Below, piece after piece: positions 2,869-11,916 of a stretch of DNA of 37,072 bases. The position numbers were made by a program, and so were the translations under genes. Origin of the DNA: an uncultured Eubacteriales bacterium (GTDB lineage Bacteria; Bacillota; Clostridia; Christensenellales; Aristaeellaceae); assembly GCA_900315315.1 (NCBI GenBank), contig OMYT01000032.1, positions 1 to 37,072 on the forward strand, read 5' to 3'. Every line of letters starts with the position of its first letter. The stretch's first letter is position 1. A model generated the notes under the pieces. It saw only the letters and a program-made list of their open reading frames with translations, was not told where the DNA came from and did not search any database.

Positions 2869-3849
2869 ATGGCAATCGAAGCAAAAGCCACTTTACTGAA
2901 CGAGATGGAGCGGGCCCTGGCCGCAGAGGTCACGGCAGCAGAGCGGGACAGGATCATGGCGATCCTGACCGAGGCCCTGGACGGATACGACCTGACCATC
3001 GTCCAGCAGGACGGGATCCGGCAGGACGATCTCCTGGATGCCTACCTGTCCGCCCTGGCCATCGAAGGGCGCAGCGCGAAAACGATCGAGCGGTACCGCT
3101 ATCTGATCGGCAGGATGATGGCAGCCGTGAGGACGCCGACCAGGAAGATCACCGTCTACCATCTCAGGAAGTATCTGTCCGACGAGAAGGCCCGCGGGAT
3201 CTCCGACCGAACGCTGGAGAGCACCAGGCAGGTGTTCAGCGCCTATTTCAACTGGCTGCAGCGCGAGCGGCTGATCGATCAGAACCCGACCGCCAACCTG
3301 GGTGCGATCCGGTATGCCAAGAAAGAAAAGGACATCTATTCCGATGTCGACCTGGAGCGCATGAAGTTCGGATGCAAGTCCCTGCGGGATCGCGCGATCG
3401 TTGCCTTCCTGCGGGCCACCGGCTGCCGTATCAGCGAGATGTGCGGCCTGAACCGGGACGATGTGGATCTCCAGTCCCTGGAGTGCAAAGTCCTGGGCAA
3501 AGGCAACAAGGAGCGGACCGTCTTCCTGGATCAGGTGGCAGCTGCCACCCTGCAGGCCTACCTGGACACCAGGACGGATGATCACCCGGCCCTTTTCGTC
3601 GGCAAGGGCACGACGAGAATGCACCCGGGCGGGATCCGGAAGATGTTGGTGGATCTCGGTGCATCGTCGCATGTTACCCATGTGCATCCGCACAAGTTCC
3701 GCCGGACGACGGCCACGAACCTGATCCGGCACGGAATGCCGATCCAGGAGGTCGCGGCCATCCTGGGCCACGACAAACTCGACACGACCATGCAGTATGT
3801 CGTCCTGGACAAGTCTGATATAAAGAATTCCTACCGCAAATACGCATAA
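2869..3849 (+). CDS. Tyrosine recombinase (XerC/D-like), accessory module
   Basis: A 326-residue protein with a SAM-like N-terminal core-binding domain (about 50-135) and a C-terminal catalytic domain. All active-site residues are visible: R187 (ATGCRISEM), K211 (GKGNKER), H275 and R278 (HPHKFRR), H301 (LGHDKLDTT) and nucleophile Y310. AGGAGG stands 8 nt before the ATG. The gene has its own strong, operator-bearing promoter and is not the attP-linked integrase. It sits between the tail-fibre pair and the lysis genes next to two small DNA-binding proteins. It could be a DNA-inversion or site-specific switch enzyme, a dimer resolvase, or the integrase of an inserted mini-element. Only the family is certain. 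Confidence 0.9.
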   Translation: MAIEAKATLLNEMERALAAEVTAAERDRIMAILTEALDGYDLTIVQQDGIRQDDLLDAYLSALAIEGRSAKTIERYRYLIGRMMAAVRTPTRKITVYHLRKYLSDEKARGISDRTLESTRQVFSAYFNWLQRERLIDQNPTANLGAIRYAKKEKDIYSDVDLERMKFGCKSLRDRAIVAFLRATGCRISEMCGLNRDDVDLQSLECKVLGKGNKERTVFLDQVAAATLQAYLDTRTDDHPALFVGKGTTRMHPGGIRKMLVDLGASSHVTHVHPHKFRRTTATNLIRHGMPIQEVAAILGHDKLDTTMQYVVLDKSDIKNSYRKYA

Positions 3850-3854
3850 AGGAT

Positions 3855-4805
3855 GTGATCCACATCGTCACCGCGAAAGCGTTTATCATGCAGATCCTGA
3901 TCCCGCTGCGGCAGGCCTGGGGCTATATCTGGGGCTACGCAGGCGTTACATGGACGGAAGATCTGCAGGATAAGATCGAACAGACCACCGACGAGAACCG
4001 GGAGGCGTCCCGGAATTATGGTTCCCAATGGATAGGCCGGAAAGTCACTGACTGCTCCGGCCTTTTACGTTGGGCACTGAAGCAGCTGGGCGAGGAGATC
4101 CCGCACCAGGCGCGTTATCAGTATACGGATCACTGCAGGGCCAAGGGCAAGCTCATCGACGGCAAGCGGGACGACGGCCAGCCGATCCTTCCTGGCACCG
4201 CCGTCTTCCTGGCGGCCCCGCAGACGAAGATCCACCATGTAGGCGTCTATGTTGGCCAGGGCATCTGCGTCGAGGCCAAGGGTGCGCGCTACGGCGTCGT
4301 GACCAGCAAGCTGGACCACTGGGACCACTGGGGCGAGCTCAAGGCCGTGGACTATACGGACGCAGCTGCCCTGGAAGGCGCGATCGAGATCCCAGAGCGC
4401 GGGGAAGGCGGGGAACCCGTGTCCGTCTGGCCGTTGGCCGTCGCCAACAATCCAGGCTCCTGGCTGAATCTCCGGAAGAAGCCGGACAGCAGCTCCGAGC
4501 GCCTGGCCAAGATCCCGCGCGGCTCCACCGTCGAGGTGATGACCCAGGACGGGAACTGGTGGCAGGTCCGCTACGCCGGCCGGATCGGCTGGGCAACGTC
4601 TGAATATCTGTCCCTGATCGAGCCGGATCAGGACGAGCCGGGGGACACCGATCAGGAGATCCATCCGGATCCGCCCGCGCCTGCTCCGGATGATCCGCCC
4701 GCACCGCCGGATGATCCCCAGCTGCCGGACCTGATCGGGGAGCTGCGCGGGATCCGCGAGCACATCGACCGGGTGATCCGCATGATGGGAGGCGATTCCG
4801 GATGA
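3855..4805 (+). CDS. Endolysin: NlpC/P60 peptidase with SH3b domain
   Basis: A 316-residue cell-wall hydrolase. Residues about 30-170 are an NlpC/P60 cysteine peptidase, with C67 in TDCSGLLRWAL, H128 in HHVGVYVG and a polar third residue near E140; this family cuts peptide stems of peptidoglycan. Residues about 195-255 form an SH3b wall-binding domain (WLNLRKKPDSSSERLAKIPRG and WWQVRYAGRIGW). A Pro/Asp-rich linker (about 256-290) leads to a C-terminal amphipathic helix. There is no signal peptide, so release depends on the holin. The GTG start at 3855 has a weak binding site; ATG at 3888 is an alternative. It heads the lysis cassette and overlaps the next frame by ATGA. Confidence 0.9.
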   Translation: MIHIVTAKAFIMQILIPLRQAWGYIWGYAGVTWTEDLQDKIEQTTDENREASRNYGSQWIGRKVTDCSGLLRWALKQLGEEIPHQARYQYTDHCRAKGKLIDGKRDDGQPILPGTAVFLAAPQTKIHHVGVYVGQGICVEAKGARYGVVTSKLDHWDHWGELKAVDYTDAAALEGAIEIPERGEGGEPVSVWPLAVANNPGSWLNLRKKPDSSSERLAKIPRGSTVEVMTQDGNWWQVRYAGRIGWATSEYLSLIEPDQDEPGDTDQEIHPDPPAPAPDDPPAPPDDPQLPDLIGELRGIREHIDRVIRMMGGDSG

Positions 4806-5536: not shown

Positions 5537-6598
5537 TCAGGAATCCGTTGCCGAAGCATTGCCATTTTGAGGAGGGAGAAGGGACTCGAAATAGGCGTTA
5601 ATGGTGGCGTCGGCGGCTTTGCGTTCGGGGGCGAAGGTGTGGGTGTAGACGCGGTTCATGGTGTAATCGGTCTTCCAGCCGCCGCGCTCCTGGGCGATCT
5701 CCTTCTGGACGCCGAGCATGGCCATGGCGGAGGCGTTCAGGTGGCGGAGCTGGTGGAAGGTCATCGGCGGAAGGCCGGCGGCCTGGATGGCCTTGCGGAA
5801 GCGGCCGTAGATCTGTTTGCCGGTCATCGGCACCAGGACGTCGCCGTCGACCTGGTCGATCAGGGCCTGGATGTACGGAGGGATATCGAAGACGCGGGTG
5901 CGCTCTTCTTCCTTGCCGCCTTCCTTGCGGACGTCCCGGCCTTTGACGCGGACGACGGTCTCCATGACGTAGAGCTGGCCGTTGTAGATGGATTTGGACT
6001 TCGTGAGGCCGCGGATCTCTGACATGGACAGGGACAGCCAGGCGGCCAGGAGACACGGCAGCTCGATGTCGGTGCCGCGGATCGCGCTGATCACATCCGG
6101 CGGCATCGGGATCCGGACGATGCGGCGCTTCTTCTCCGGCGTAATGATGCGGGAGGAATCAATCTGAGCGCCGGCGGTGCGCATGACGGTCTTGATGAAG
6201 GCCACGCGGTCGTTGATCGTGGCGGGGCTCAGGGTTCCGCCGCGGCGGGACTTCCGGGTGCATTCCAGGGTGATCGCCTTCTGCAGGGCGGACTCGTCGA
6301 TGTCCTTCAGGCGCTTGTCCATGATCGAGGAGAAGTGCTGGTCCCGGTTCTTTTCGTAGGATTCTATGGTGGTGGCGGAGCAGATGCCGCGCCGTTTGTC
6401 GATGTAATCATTGCAGGCTTCCCTGAGCGTCATGTTCAGGGGAGTCTTTTTCGATTCCAGGATGCCGGTCTTGTAAGCCAGGGCACGGGCGAAGCAGCGT
6501 TCCTCCGTGGGCTCGGTGATGCCGATGTCCTTCCCGTCCACCCGGACGCGGCAGAACCAGTTGCCGCTGGGCAGCTGGCGGGGAACTGGGTTTTTCAT
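5537..6598 (-). CDS. int: Phage integrase (tyrosine recombinase)
   Basis: A 353-residue integrase: N-terminal AP2-like/arm-binding part (1-55), SAM-like core-binding domain (about 57-145) and catalytic domain (165-330). Visible active-site residues are H282 and R285 (FHQLRH), W308 in the place of the second His (as in Cre) and Y318 (NRVYTHT). The first catalytic Arg position reads Ser (S191 in LSLSMSEIRG), with R196 five residues on, which is odd. The start has GGAGG 5 nt upstream. The gene lies directly beside attP and downstream of repressor and cargo gene on the same strand, so it may also be read from the lysogeny promoter. It catalyses integration and, with an excision factor, excision. 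Confidence 0.9.
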   Translation of the reverse strand: MKNPVPRQLPSGNWFCRVRVDGKDIGITEPTEERCFARALAYKTGILESKKTPLNMTLREACNDYIDKRRGICSATTIESYEKNRDQHFSSIMDKRLKDIDESALQKAITLECTRKSRRGGTLSPATINDRVAFIKTVMRTAGAQIDSSRIITPEKKRRIVRIPMPPDVISAIRGTDIELPCLLAAWLSLSMSEIRGLTKSKSIYNGQLYVMETVVRVKGRDVRKEGGKEEERTRVFDIPPYIQALIDQVDGDVLVPMTGKQIYGRFRKAIQAAGLPPMTFHQLRHLNASAMAMLGVQKEIAQERGGWKTDYTMNRVYTHTFAPERKAADATINAYFESLLPPQNGNASATDS

Positions 6599-8106: not shown

Positions 8107-8511
8107 ATGAAGTGCGCGTACTGCGGGAAAATGTTCCGGATCACGACTGCCGGCTGGGGTTATGCCTACGATGGGCACTACACCTGCTCATACAGCTGTA
8201 TGCGCGCCATGGAAAAGGAGGACGGCATCAGGATGTTGACGGACGAACAGAAAAAGGCCGTTGAGCAGCTGCGGGGCGAAGGGCTGAAAGCCAGCCAGAT
8301 TGCAGACAGGCTGCAGGTCAGCGCCAAAGCGGTCGGCGGATACATTTCCGGCAAGATGCACGGGAAACAGGAAACCGTCGGAAGCATCACCCTGCCGGTG
8401 CCGCAGCTGGAGATATCAAAAGATCAGCCAGTCAGCGACGACGTCCGCCTGGCTGTGGTCCGCCTGATCCAGGACATGCTGGACGTGCTGAAAAGGCTGT
8501 ACGGGATCTGA
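8107..8511 (+). CDS. Early zinc-ribbon plus HTH protein
   Basis: A 134-residue protein. Residues 1-32 carry paired cysteines (MKCAYCGKMF and YTCSYSCM) like a small zinc finger. Residues 43-82 form an HTH resembling a sigma region 4/resolvase type (LTDEQKKAVEQLRGEGLKASQIADRLQVSAKAVGGYI). The C-terminus (DDVRLAVVRLIQDMLDVLKRLYG) is helical. It is probably a DNA-binding early regulator. The ATG has GGAG 8 nt upstream. It is not assigned to a named family. Confidence 0.65.
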   Translation: MKCAYCGKMFRITTAGWGYAYDGHYTCSYSCMRAMEKEDGIRMLTDEQKKAVEQLRGEGLKASQIADRLQVSAKAVGGYISGKMHGKQETVGSITLPVPQLEISKDQPVSDDVRLAVVRLIQDMLDVLKRLYGI

Positions 8512-9613: not shown

Positions 9614-9828
9614 GTGATAAGGTCCTTCGCTCCGCTCAGGATGCGGTCCGCTATGCGGACCTGACAGGGCCGGAACTGCACAGGCACATCTGGGAATATG
9701 ATCCTGACAGCACGATGTATGTGTGCCGGGTGTGCGGGGCATCCAGGATGCCGTATCCCGGCGAGATTGAGATGGCGACGGCTAAGGAACTCAGAATCCG
9801 GCACGACGGGGAGGAATCGGATCTGTGA
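9610..9828 (+). CDS. Small CxxC protein carrying a REP-like insert
   Basis: A 72-residue protein, translationally coupled to the gene before it. VCRVCGAS is a CxxC knuckle, with HRHIWEY upstream. Codons 5-19 (KVLRSAQDAVRYADL) are encoded by a REP-like palindromic element (9621-9667), kept in frame. Without this element the protein would begin near TGPELHRHIWEY. Function unknown, possibly metal-binding. Confidence 0.6.
   Translation: MSDKVLRSAQDAVRYADLTGPELHRHIWEYDPDSTMYVCRVCGASRMPYPGEIEMATAKELRIRHDGEESDL
9621..9667 (+). repeat. REP-like palindromic element, copy A (inside a gene)
   Basis: GGTCCTTCGCTCCGCTCAGG ATGCG followed by the hairpin GTCCGC-TAT-GCGGAC and CTGACAG. It has the same layout as copy B (13923-13975). 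The reverse complement reads GCATCCTGAGCGGAGCGAAG, the common host REP type whose spurious translation gives HPERSEG-like peptides. Confidence 0.75.
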
Positions 9829-10382
9829 GGCTCTGCGATCAGGGCGCGGCCAATCTGGTCGTGGAGATTGTCAAGCAGGCGATCAGCGACTACCGCTTCG
9901 CCCAGGCGATGCTGCGCGCCGGAGATGATCGGCGGGCGGAGCTGCGCAAGAGATCATCCGCCAGGAGCCCGAAGGCCGTCACGGATCCGGCGGAGGAGAT
10001 GCGGATGCTCGAAAAGTTCTTCACCGGGAAATGGTTCCATCTCCTGGTGGACCTGGACGGGCGGGAACTGGTGCGGCTCCTGCAGACGACCAGGCGCGGG
10101 CCCCAGCCGGAGGAACTGCGCAGGAAACGGAAACGGGGCGCGCCCAGGGGGCGGCATCCCGGCGCGGTGACGGACTGGCAGAGCCTCGCCCGAAAATGGC
10201 CGGACCTGCAGGACCTGGCAAAGCGACTGGACGCGCAGGGCATCACAAAAACCAGGCTGGCGAGAGTCCTGGGCGTTGACACGTCCACGCTGAACAAAAA
10301 CATCCAGGTGGGAACCGAACGGACCAAGCAGAAGGTGATCGAAGCGGCGGAGAAGGTGATGAGGGAAGGGAATAGGGAATAG
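9825..10382 (+). CDS. Early protein with C-terminal HTH
   Basis: A 185-residue basic protein. The GTG start overlaps the previous stop (GTGA). Residues 60-100 (MRMLEKFFTGKWFHLLVDLDGRELVRLL) are helical and followed by an Arg/Lys-rich stretch (RRKRKRGAPRGR). Residues about 145-165 (ITKTRLARVLGVDTSTLNKNI) form an HTH. It is probably DNA-binding, in regulation or replication. Its last codons and stop (EGNRE-stop) lie in a GGGAATA repeat cluster. Confidence 0.6.
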   Translation: MRLCDQGAANLVVEIVKQAISDYRFAQAMLRAGDDRRAELRKRSSARSPKAVTDPAEEMRMLEKFFTGKWFHLLVDLDGRELVRLLQTTRRGPQPEELRRKRKRGAPRGRHPGAVTDWQSLARKWPDLQDLAKRLDAQGITKTRLARVLGVDTSTLNKNIQVGTERTKQKVIEAAEKVMREGNRE

Positions 10383-10388
10383 GGAATA
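10368..10388 (+). repeat. Heptamer tandem repeat GGGAATA, cluster 3
   Basis: Three perfect GGGAATA units. The first two contain the last codons and the TAG stop of the preceding gene. The cluster marks the left border of the long gene-free structured stretch. Confidence 0.85.
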
Positions 10389-10462
10389 GGATACGCGGTG
10401 GCCAGCGCGGGCGGGTTTCTTCCTTTGACCGCCTTCCGGGGGCAGCACCCGGACACCGCACC

Positions 10463-10502
10463 ACCGCCCCGTTTTTGACAGGTGCGGGGCGGTTCCTTCT
10501 TT
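10463..10502 (+). terminator. Terminator-like hairpin with competing pairing
   Basis: A 9-bp stem (ACCGCCCCG/CGGGGCGGT) with a 13-nt loop, followed by TCCTTCTTT. Within it, GCACC (about 10468 upstream side) and GGTGC can pair alternatively, giving two exclusive folds. It may end the upstream early transcript, or be the first domain of the structured RNA. Confidence 0.45.
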
Positions 10503-10736
10503 CGTATAGGGCGGAAACGCCCGCCATCCGGGCCGGAATTACCCCACGGTCCGGGTGGTTATGTGCGGCTTCGAGCGACACGCGGATCCTTTGCTCCCAC
10601 AGAGGCAAAGCCCGCGCGCAGCCGGTGCGAAACCGGCGGGCCGCAAGATCCTTCGTATGCCTGTTCAACCTCACCGGCATGGGAAGGGAATATCGTCCAA
10701 GGGCGGGGTCGTTTGGCGACAGCCCCGCCCACTTAC

Positions 10737-10804
10737 GCAGGCGCGAGTGCCCGGACCGTCTGGATTAGCGGACGGCGGGGGTGCAAATCCTCCGGCCTGC
10801 GCCA
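10737..10804 (+). other. tRNA-like domain in the structured region
   Basis: GCAGGC (10737-10742) pairs with GCCTGC (10795-10800), followed by G-CCA (10801-10804) like a tRNA 3' end. Directly inside lies a T-arm-like hairpin with a 7-nt loop (GGGGG-TGCAAAT-CCTCC, 10777-10793). The rest is not a canonical tRNA: the middle hairpin is CCGTCTG/CGGACGG with a 6-nt loop and the D-arm part is too short. It is a tRNA mimic or a domain of the larger RNA. Confidence 0.5.
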
Positions 10805-11004
10805 GGGCTGCTGCCGGCCCGAACGTCAGCGGGTTTAGAAGTATGCTCCGACCATGAGGAAGCGGCTGTACCCATAACAGCGCGCAAGAGAATGAGTTGG
10901 CAGCGGGGAACAGACCGCCCAGGGAGGTATCCCGGGTTACAGCCTCCCTGGTTATCATTGCGAGACTTTCCCGGACACGGGAAGGATCAAAAGGAGGAAG
11001 GACC

Positions 11005-11916
11005 ATGAGTGACCTGTCAGCACCAAAGTCCGGCCGATTGAGTGGGCGGACGAGAGAGGAAATCGACCGGGATTTCCGTGAGAATTGCCGGAAAGGCGCG
11101 GAGAGCATCCTGCGGATCGGATACGATCTCGCGGAAATGAAGGCCCTGTGTGAGCACGGGGAATGGCTGGAATGGCTCAAATCCGTCGAATGGAGCGAGC
11201 GCACGGCCCAGAACTACATGAGGGTGGCAAAGTCCTGGGATCAGAACCCTAAGCTGATGGCCATGGGCTACACCAGGACGGTGGCCCTGCTGGCCGCTCC
11301 GGCGGAAGTGCAGGAGATGGCCGCAGACGGTCAGCTGGACAACGCCAGCGCCGCGGAGATCAGGAGGCTGAGCAAGGAGCTCAGCGGCAGCGAGGAGACC
11401 AGGCAGAAGCTGATCCGGGAACTGGAGCAGCGCGATCAGACCGTCAGCGGACTGCTGGACCAGCTGAAAGAAGCTGACAAAAAGATTCACGATCGTGAAG
11501 AAAAATTGCGCGAACGTGCGAAAAATCCCGAGATCGTGGAAAAGATCGTCGAGAAGATCCCGGACGACTATGAACTGCTCAAGCGCCAGTTGAGACTGGC
11601 CGAGGACGCCGCGGAGGATGCCGAGCGCCGGGCGGCGGAAGCGGTGCAGCAGGCCCAGGAGGCCATGGCCGGAGAACCGGATCCGTTCGAGGGGCCGACT
11701 GTCTCCGGGTTCATCGGCTCTGTGAACACCTTCCTGGCCGCGTCCGGCCATCTGCCCTACGCGGAGGAATGGCTGAGGACACTCAGCCCGGACGACCGCC
11801 GGAGCGTGCGGATGTTCGCAGATTCGATCTGGCACTGGTCGGAGAACATGCTGAAAGCCCTGGAAGCGGACCGGCTGGTGGTGATCCCTGGGGAAGGGGC
11901 CGTGTCCAATGAGTGA
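11005..11916 (+). CDS. DUF3102-type phage protein
   Basis: A 303-residue protein. Residues about 12-85 match the DUF3102 pattern: RKGAESILRIGYDLAEMKAL followed by HGEWLEWLKSVEWSERTAQNYMRVAKSW, a helical region related to nucleoid/ParB-type DNA-binding proteins. The middle (about 125-235) is a long charged coiled coil, and the end (240-300) a helical domain around SGFIGSVNTFLAASGHLPYAEEWL. The ATG at 11005 has AAAGGAGGAAGG upstream. It is common in early regions of Clostridia and Bacilli prophages with unknown role. It is the first gene after the structured RNA stretch. Confidence 0.8.
   Translation: MSDLSAPKSGRLSGRTREEIDRDFRENCRKGAESILRIGYDLAEMKALCEHGEWLEWLKSVEWSERTAQNYMRVAKSWDQNPKLMAMGYTRTVALLAAPAEVQEMAADGQLDNASAAEIRRLSKELSGSEETRQKLIRELEQRDQTVSGLLDQLKEADKKIHDREEKLRERAKNPEIVEKIVEKIPDDYELLKRQLRLAEDAAEDAERRAAEAVQQAQEAMAGEPDPFEGPTVSGFIGSVNTFLAASGHLPYAEEWLRTLSPDDRRSVRMFADSIWHWSENMLKALEADRLVVIPGEGAVSNE

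Follow-up and report, generated by a model that had tools for sequence, protein, structure and literature searches.

A structured, gene-free stretch of a phage early operon with two tRNA-like units and a hairpin that recurs across phages

Phage T4 yields the stable RNAs C and D, which are not tRNAs and are processed from the phage tRNA transcript, and in organelle transcripts tRNA units serve as cutting signals between RNAs, an arrangement known as tRNA punctuation. Bacterial RNase P and the enzymes of the 3' end recognise the acceptor/T-arm stack, and tRNA-like elements that lie in messages can be cut. ROOL and GOLLD are described in PMC12286853 as large ornate phage and prophage RNAs, often near tRNA islands, GOLLD being composed of a conserved 3' part and a less conserved 5' part. 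The abiF and type III antitoxin RNAs are small and structured with repeated hairpins, and a prophage case is given in PMC12373285.

The RNA described here was found in a 37,072-nucleotide contig of an uncultured Eubacteriales bacterium (OMYT01000032.1, assembly GCA_900315315.1), and the whole of this stretch of DNA is referred to as the window. The RNA belongs with ROOL and GOLLD, to which it is akin in kind as a structured phage RNA near tRNAs, and it matches neither model. ROOL is likewise a large ornate phage or prophage RNA, often near tRNA islands according to PMC12286853, but the window contains no match to its model, the tRNA-like elements lie inside the stretch, and the small hairpin of the stretch recurs alone across phages. 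GOLLD is comparable as a phage RNA near tRNAs with, by the same paper, a conserved 3' and a less conserved 5' part; it differs in that its model finds no match here and in that the common 3' element of the window's family measures only about 21 nt. The abiF RNAs resemble the family as small structured RNAs with repeated hairpins, but the abiF model (RF03085) had no match in the window, and no Abi family was found among the window proteins scanned. The likeness to T4 RNAs C and D, as stable non-tRNA RNAs from a tRNA cluster, is one of description. Organelle tRNA punctuation likewise places units between RNAs, whereas the units of the window are degenerate phage tRNA-like elements whose cutting is only proposed.

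The window is one contig of the host assembly and contains integrase, terminase and portal genes, and both genes that flank the RNA are carried at 99-100% identity by the viral contig IMGVR_UViG_2799112443_000003. Two integrase-like genes were found, at 2869-3849 on the + strand and 5537-6598 on the - strand (Pfam Phage_integrase, E 1.1e-35 and 3.2e-10), and a small protein encoded at 8107-8511 on the + strand matches sigma-70 region 4 weakly (E 1.2e-4, below the Pfam cut-off). The G+C content is 0.43-0.47 at positions 1-2400 and 0.48-0.70 elsewhere in the window, and the low values perhaps mark a boundary or another element. Exactly 622 nt separate the + strand gene at 9825-10382 from the DUF3102 gene, whose ATG is at 11005, and the features of this region are the following:

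9825-10382, + strand: upstream gene of 185 aa, weakly HTH-like (below Pfam cut-offs; context).
10383-11004, + strand: highly structured RNA region with no credible gene, from ORF and family searches and the fold.
10494-10503, + strand: UCCUUCUUUC, which according to the 622-nt fold would base-pair with the ribosome-binding site of the downstream gene, at a mean probability of 0.94.
10564-10645, + strand: tRNA-like unit A, with an acceptor-like helix (10564-10569/10640-10645) and without CCA.
10575-10619 and 10621-10637, + strand: inner parts of unit A, a long arm and the T-arm (GCCGG TGCGAAA CCGGC), respectively.
10650-10687, + strand: hairpin CCTTC.TATGCC...GGCATG.GAAGG between the units, mean pair probabilities 0.84-1.0.
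10736-10804, + strand: tRNA-like unit B, with an acceptor-like helix (10736-10742/10795-10801, 7/7 Watson-Crick) and CCA at 10802-10804.
10756-10775, + strand: anticodon-like arm of unit B, drawn with a 6-bp stem and an 8-nt loop, the fold preferring 7 bp and 6 nt.
10777-10793, + strand: T-arm of unit B (GGGGG TGCAAAT CCTCC), from the T-arm pattern and comparison with model R2.
10805-10897, + strand: spacer RNA, containing a hairpin at 10862-10885 (predicted fold).
10898-10919, + strand: family hairpin in a variant form, TGGCAGCGGGGAACAGACCGCC, with 2 mismatches to the form in locus L274.
10921-10951, + strand: hairpin AGGGAGGT...GCCTCCCT, following the family hairpin, z -1.16 and within chance on its own.
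10993-11002, + strand: GGAGGAAGGA, region of the ribosome-binding site that precedes the DUF3102 gene, from the sequence and the predicted fold.
11005-11916, + strand: downstream gene of 303 aa, DUF3102 (Pfam PF11300, E 4.7e-12; context).

The first-pass annotation had noticed 622 bp without a credible gene, and this was confirmed. Nine listed ORFs of at least 60 aa overlap the gap, of which one is an extended reading of the DUF3102 frame and two are mostly antisense to the upstream gene; the remaining six (75-177 aa, both strands) gave nothing in Pfam or in PHROGs at E <= 0.1, and the 118-aa gap ORF had no tblastn match at E <= 0.01 in 50,697 phage records. The strong structure that had been noted in the same stretch was also borne out. 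The + strand of 10383-11005, which is the strand of both flanking genes, folded at -305.4 kcal/mol compared with -268.7 (sd 8.1) for shuffles, giving a z of -4.52 with none of 20 shuffles equal, while the reverse strand had a z of -1.24 with 2/20 shuffles equal, and thus only the + strand folds far beyond its shuffles. The mean pair probability was at least 0.9 in 20 of the 36 helices of the 622-nt fold, and sub-domains folded alone were weaker (z -2.63 for domain A, -1.71 for domain B and -1.37 for the 3' spacer). As for the several GNRA-type loops that had been reported, a GAAA loop was found at 10509-10522 (GGGCG-GAAA-CGCCC), but two conspicuous loops read as T-loops, TGCGAAA at 10626 and TGCAAAT at 10782.

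No Rfam 15 family reached its gathering score in the window with cmscan, and ROOL, GOLLD, HEARO and the group I and II introns were absent among the Rfam matches at E <= 10 in 10300-11100. The stretch had been proposed to be a member or relative of the ROOL-GOLLD group or a new class; membership of ROOL or GOLLD was not borne out, with no cmscan match even at E 10, and what is supported is a large structured phage RNA with tRNA-like sequence, together with the suggestion of a new class. The argument that the length fits ROOL is of no help because the stretch is composite, consisting of two tRNA-like units, a spacer, the family hairpin and further hairpins. In 99 related genomes other than its own, in phages and in plasmids, the whole stretch had no sequence relative. 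Riboswitches, introns and HEARO had no cmscan support in the window, and a resemblance to a cobalamin-riboswitch T-loop had no Rfam support either. Relatives scanned with Rfam showed only tRNA at the gathering score, and one member of the G1 sub-class described below had two chance-level matches at E <= 10. A literature search by sequence string returned only unrelated texts with a 12-mer, and no description of the hairpin or the RNA was found in the full-text literature searched, outside which lie supplementary tables (e.g. those of PMC8040213) and most subscription papers.

T-arms were sought as a 5-bp stem with a closing G-C pair and a loop T-[GTC]-C-R-A-N-N, and over the two strands of the window only two places match, 10621 and 10777, which lie 156 nt apart on the + strand. 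The 3' strand of an acceptor-like helix begins 1 nt past each T-arm, with Watson-Crick pairs at 6/7 positions in unit A and 7/7 in unit B, and CCA directly follows this helix in unit B only. On pattern, each unit is therefore tRNA-like in having an acceptor-like helix that closes a T-arm with U54, C56, R57, A58 and a 53-61 G-C pair; neither was called a tRNA by ARAGORN or Rfam RF00005. Sixty Markov resamples gave 0.35 T-arms per strand and 0.03 with a 7-pair acceptor, and two T-arms within 300 nt in none of the 60. These two T-arms with their acceptor-like helices support the earlier suggestion that tRNA-like sequence accompanies a large structured phage RNA. When unit B is folded for minimum energy, its acceptor-like helix and middle arm are retained but its T-arm does not form, as the T-arm bases take other partners (10747-10752 with 10779-10784, probability 0.45). 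The T-arm of unit B consequently rests on pattern and comparison.

R2, a covariance model made from unit B only, found a tRNA-like element in phage locus L012 (E 0.0037), with TGGCAGCCGGGAAAGACCGGC downstream of it. In 47 other loci it found nine elements outside the window at E <= 0.05, the best at 4e-4, and three of these share one sequence. ARAGORN calls no tRNA that overlaps any of the nine, and R2 misses all canonical tRNAs of L242, L108, L155 and L264. The corresponding model of unit A (R1) gave matches at E <= 0.1 in 4/300 genomes, one of them the window's own and the others at E 0.04-0.09, and these were set aside as unconvincing. tRNA-like elements with an acceptor, a D-arm-like part and a T-arm, and by eye without an anticodon arm, were also seen in L018 (3344-3402 minus), where the element still scores 43 bits with Rfam tRNA, and in L077 (about 1653-1716 minus), a locus from a different contig of the window's host genome.

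The window's copy of the family hairpin, TGGCAGCGGGGAACAGACCGCC, starts 93 nt past the CCA of unit B and has T-arms at -121 and -277. It combines TGRCA, a stem, a loop of the GGAA(C)AGAC type and the second strand of the stem, which places 10898-10919 in the TGRCAG family, and it differs from the canonical form in its loop and in the register of its stem, which re-registers to 4 bp. The 22-mer is the sole match in the window to the L274 form at up to 3 mismatches, and no match occurred in 100 shuffles, the L274 form having been picked as the reference after the window had been seen. The loop variant GGAACAGAC was found in L274, L192 and L093 in a scan without a loop list, and not at all with a reversed-prefix control. 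In the spacer, the loop ACCCAT (10870-10875) could form 5/6 pairs, with an internal mismatch, with ATGAGT (10892-10897), which directly precedes the family hairpin. This is a weak candidate pseudoknot, proposed from its likeness to the G1 sub-class and only suggestive; the automatic test called no structure for the window, and the hold-out model R3 described below lent the pairing no support.

Across phages the family follows the pattern TGRCAGCCN-GGAAAGAC-NGGCA. Its exact form TGGCAGCCNGGAAAGACNGGC was matched in at least 120 viral-contig stretches and in 58 stretches from genome contigs. Among the matches listed there are 186 exact occurrences, and in 180 of them the two free positions of the stem can pair if G-T is counted, so that this is a hairpin kept by selection; the six that do not pair are all from genome contigs. 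When all collected loci were scanned without a loop list after removal of near-identical copies, the loop GGAAAGAC occurred 198 times in these non-redundant loci and never with the reversed prefix. Three overlapping searches of the 50,697 annotated phage records with queries of 31-34 nt matched 21, 5 and 36 records, mostly in forms that depart from the exact TGGCAG form. Of the 36 named-phage matches, 24 overlap no annotated feature, 10 are located within annotated genes and 2 come from unannotated records, and the hairpin lies outside annotated genes in all six phages inspected (mEp390, ESP2949-1, Alexa, Pokken, crAss-like cr55_1 and P7641). Pokken has it 344 nt before the first of the four annotated tRNAs shown. 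The sources include records named Clostridia, Bacteroidales and Proteobacteria as well as cyanobacterial phages, and a member is carried by the lambdoid E. coli phage mEp390. Because the hairpin recurs in viruses of very different bacteria, often with a tRNA or tRNA-like element, it looks like part of an uncatalogued group of viral RNAs. Phage mEp390 (L261, about 1350-1420) and Klebsiella phage P7641 (L266, about 1320-1400) also have in common an extra element, GGACTGGAAGAGTTACCACTTGGAGACGGTCCT...AAATGTCCTGGACAGTGGCGC, upstream of the hairpin. Parts of the mEp390 stretch match 35/5426 E. coli genomes, in no case across 80% of its length; in one genome the match falls within 1 kb that is free of annotation, next to an XRE-type regulator.

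The association with T-arms was counted for 167 non-redundant hairpins in 141 loci, restricted to loci L083-L266 with near-identical copies removed. A T-arm lay within -250..+110 of 69/167 hairpins, compared with 76/2815 random positions on the same strand and 0/167 on the opposite strand, and the window, with its T-arm at -121, has one inside these limits; by the strict T-arm pattern 98/167 hairpins have none. At least two hairpins were present in 19/141 loci, and a T-arm followed 25-110 nt downstream of 35/167. Some of the neighbours are genuine tRNAs and others are tRNA-like elements that ARAGORN does not call.

Homologues of the DUF3102 protein occur in 32/300 family genomes, and 29 loci (L005-L033), fetched solely by homology to this protein, were examined for canonical hairpins, with the window's loop excluded. 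Thirteen such hairpins were found in 9 of the 29 loci. Every one precedes the gene and shares its strand, and none occurs downstream of or within the match (a nearly equal length) or on the other strand; the window RNA likewise lies upstream of its DUF3102 gene on the same strand. The 34 viral loci fetched by the terminase gene contained no canonical hairpin in 331 kb. The TerL relatives comprise 35 viral loci, the window itself among them, and blastn and nhmmer searches with the window RNA in the TerL and DUF3102 loci gave nothing convincing. No ORF-free gap (ORFs of at least 40 aa) comparable to that of the window lies directly upstream in the 29 DUF3102 loci, where chance ORFs can hide an RNA, and the ORF list shows none in the early region of L070 (80% TerL). 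The nearest syntenic region is L005, where each of the two flanking genes has a homologue (42-43% identity). These two homologues overlap with no RNA between them, and a hairpin (1041-1061) and a T-arm (1003-1019) lie instead directly upstream of the homologue of the window's upstream (HTH) gene. In the host genome itself, a different contig carries a canonical hairpin 139 nt past a T-arm, which belongs to a tRNA-like element with, by eye, no anticodon arm. Both placements support the window's link to the family, and they indicate that the cassettes come and go between genes.

One sub-class of the family, G1, is defined by a spacer between CCA and hairpin with the conserved core TAGGAAGTCCTGAACGANNCCCC, found in host-family genomes and viral contigs: 20 viral-contig stretches and, at up to 2 mismatches, 14/308 family genomes, three of them looking like coding sequence. 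The G1 alignment (A6) contains 15 of the 27 core rows plus L241, which is near-identical to L033, and excludes the window; an alignment with the window in it (A4) was set aside as evidence. Twelve rows were omitted: L288, L291 and L295 look coding by eye, L015, L267, L268, L269, L271, L281, L282 and L284 are without the common 3' hairpin as written, and L287 has it poorly aligned. In the 16 sequences both sides change in 14 of 24 pairs, including all five pairs of a pseudoknot between the hairpin loop and the strand just 5' of TGRCAG; the helix of 12-14 with 37-40 shows no compensatory change. The covariation score was reached by 0/500 shuffles, and shifted partners scored 0.04-0.12 compared with 0.37, a control that leans toward this structure because it was drawn from those same sequences. 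When loops were reassigned among strands, 1 of 20,000 reassignments equalled the observed pairing (11 types, the stem and loop pieces cut by eye).

Model R3, built from these 16 sequences, recovered all seven that were searched of the nine omitted G1-like rows (L287, L271, L281, L284, L015, L268 and L267; the other two are L269 and L282) and found other members at E 1e-5 to 1e-3, many over the hairpin alone. With the window held out, R3 scored 1.3 bits at 10898-10918, over the hairpin only, while unrelated places in the window reached 9.1 bits; membership of the window in G1, first judged by eye, was rejected because this hold-out model has no full-length match at the spacer. The window has the tRNA-like units, their order, the hairpin and the place in common with the family, and not the G1 spacer, which makes it at most a divergent relative. 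A sensitive nhmmer search of three window pieces against the loci had a best E of 1.9. A pseudoknot general to all family hairpins was also rejected, being only weakly enriched: in a loose test on 194 unique hairpins a score of at least 10 was reached in 0.448 against 0.339 and 0.315, a mild enrichment, and an adjacent helix was found in 54/173 hairpins against 0.155 and 0.130, near-identical copies and hits within 120 nt of a locus start having been left out of both counts. Separately, G1-type cores with other 3' ends were seen in L271, L281 and L284 and in L267, L269 and L282 (CCGTGGGAACTACGA.AGTGCCA or CCCCGCCCGG-type end), as if the 3' module of these RNAs were swappable. A second conserved spacer class, GACACCCAAAAT...AAATAAGGGGCTGA...AGCGGTACAAGCAGAAACGG...GCTCA, occurs in L155 (about 4040-4130) and L077 (minus, about 1538-1625).

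At the level of sequence and prediction, the analysis documents the anatomy, the + strand fold bias, the hairpin match, the T-arm and DUF3102 associations, and the covarying helices and pseudoknot of G1. The reading that we regard as probable is a composite non-coding RNA of the early operon, in which the tRNA-like units would serve as processing punctuation that frees a spacer RNA with the family hairpin. The stretch would be transcribed with the early operon in the order of two tandem tRNA-like units, the second with CCA, then the spacer RNA and then the hairpin TGRCAG-stem-GGAA(C)AGAC-stem. Host tRNA-maturation enzymes may then cut out the tRNA-like units, RNase P at the 5' end and the 3'-end enzymes at the CCA, so that the spacer with its 3' hairpin would be freed as a small RNA and the next message would gain a clean 5' end. 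The tRNA-like units are taken as the cutting signals and the spacer with the 3' hairpin as one of the products on the ground of the anatomy, which fits the strand-specific neighbourhood, the alternating units and the CCA. More speculatively, the freed tRNA-like units and spacers might act in trans as decoys or scaffolds in infection or lysogeny, or the freed RNA might be a regulator.

Other explanations were weighed against this one. The RNA could be a cis-acting 5' untranslated element that pairs with the ribosome-binding site of the DUF3102 gene and switches its translation, since it ends directly at that site, since UCCUUCUUUC (10494-10503) is predicted, from the window's sequence alone, to pair with GGAGGAAGGA (10993-11002) at a mean probability of 0.94, and since 9/29 loci carry family hairpins ahead of the DUF3102 homologue, on its strand. 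The nearest hairpin in those 9 loci, however, begins about 460-1440 nt ahead of the protein match and does not adjoin it, so that the RNA belongs to the early region rather than to the leader of the gene, and the flanking genes of L005 overlap with no RNA between. Family-wide, a ribosome-binding site with a start codon was found within 75 nt downstream of 27/167 hairpins (16.2%) compared with 12.6% of random positions, and with such sites hardly enriched, translation control by the family hairpin was rejected and a cis element is considered unlikely. It is also unlikely that the stretch is a decayed tRNA cluster with chance hairpins whose match to the hairpin of other phages is coincidental; this would fit the lack of tRNA calls by ARAGORN and Rfam, the failure of the G1 model at the window spacer and the departure of the window hairpin from the canonical loop and stem register, but leaves unaccounted for the pair of T-arms, each with its acceptor-like helix intact and one followed by CCA, the strand-specific fold, and a hairpin match that was unequalled in 100 shuffles and is placed where relatives have canonical hairpins.

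A processive antitermination element, put- or nut-like, would suit the early-operon position, the several phage hosts and a small hairpin with a purine-rich loop, which may resemble boxB or put; because it does not explain the link to tRNAs and tRNA-like elements, with at least two hairpins in 19/141 loci and T-arms 25-110 nt downstream of 35/167 hairpins, it is thought improbable. The same degree of doubt attaches to a multimeric RNA cage like those of ROOL and GOLLD but of independent sequence, for which speak the length, the helix density, the phage origin and the position of ROOL and GOLLD near tRNA islands (PMC12286853), and against which stand the absence of an Rfam match at E 10 and the separate recurrence of the hairpin and the tRNA-like elements, in varying order, in other phages.

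The composite RNA with tRNA-like punctuation may, as a tentative and rather doubtful extension, represent a wider arrangement in which phages of several phyla carry modular RNAs that are punctuated by tRNA-like elements and act in trans once freed, for example as decoys against RNA- or tRNA-cutting defences, the window being a divergent member. The tRNA-like elements of such RNAs would be degenerate, some apparently without an anticodon arm, and would alternate with structured RNAs, covarying and pseudoknotted in one class, that end in the common hairpin. As a member is present in the E. coli phage mEp390, expression, processing and phenotype are directly testable in E. coli. Tied on one strand to tRNAs and tRNA-like elements, the shared hairpin would give access to a layer of RNAs in phage genomes that escapes the annotation of proteins.
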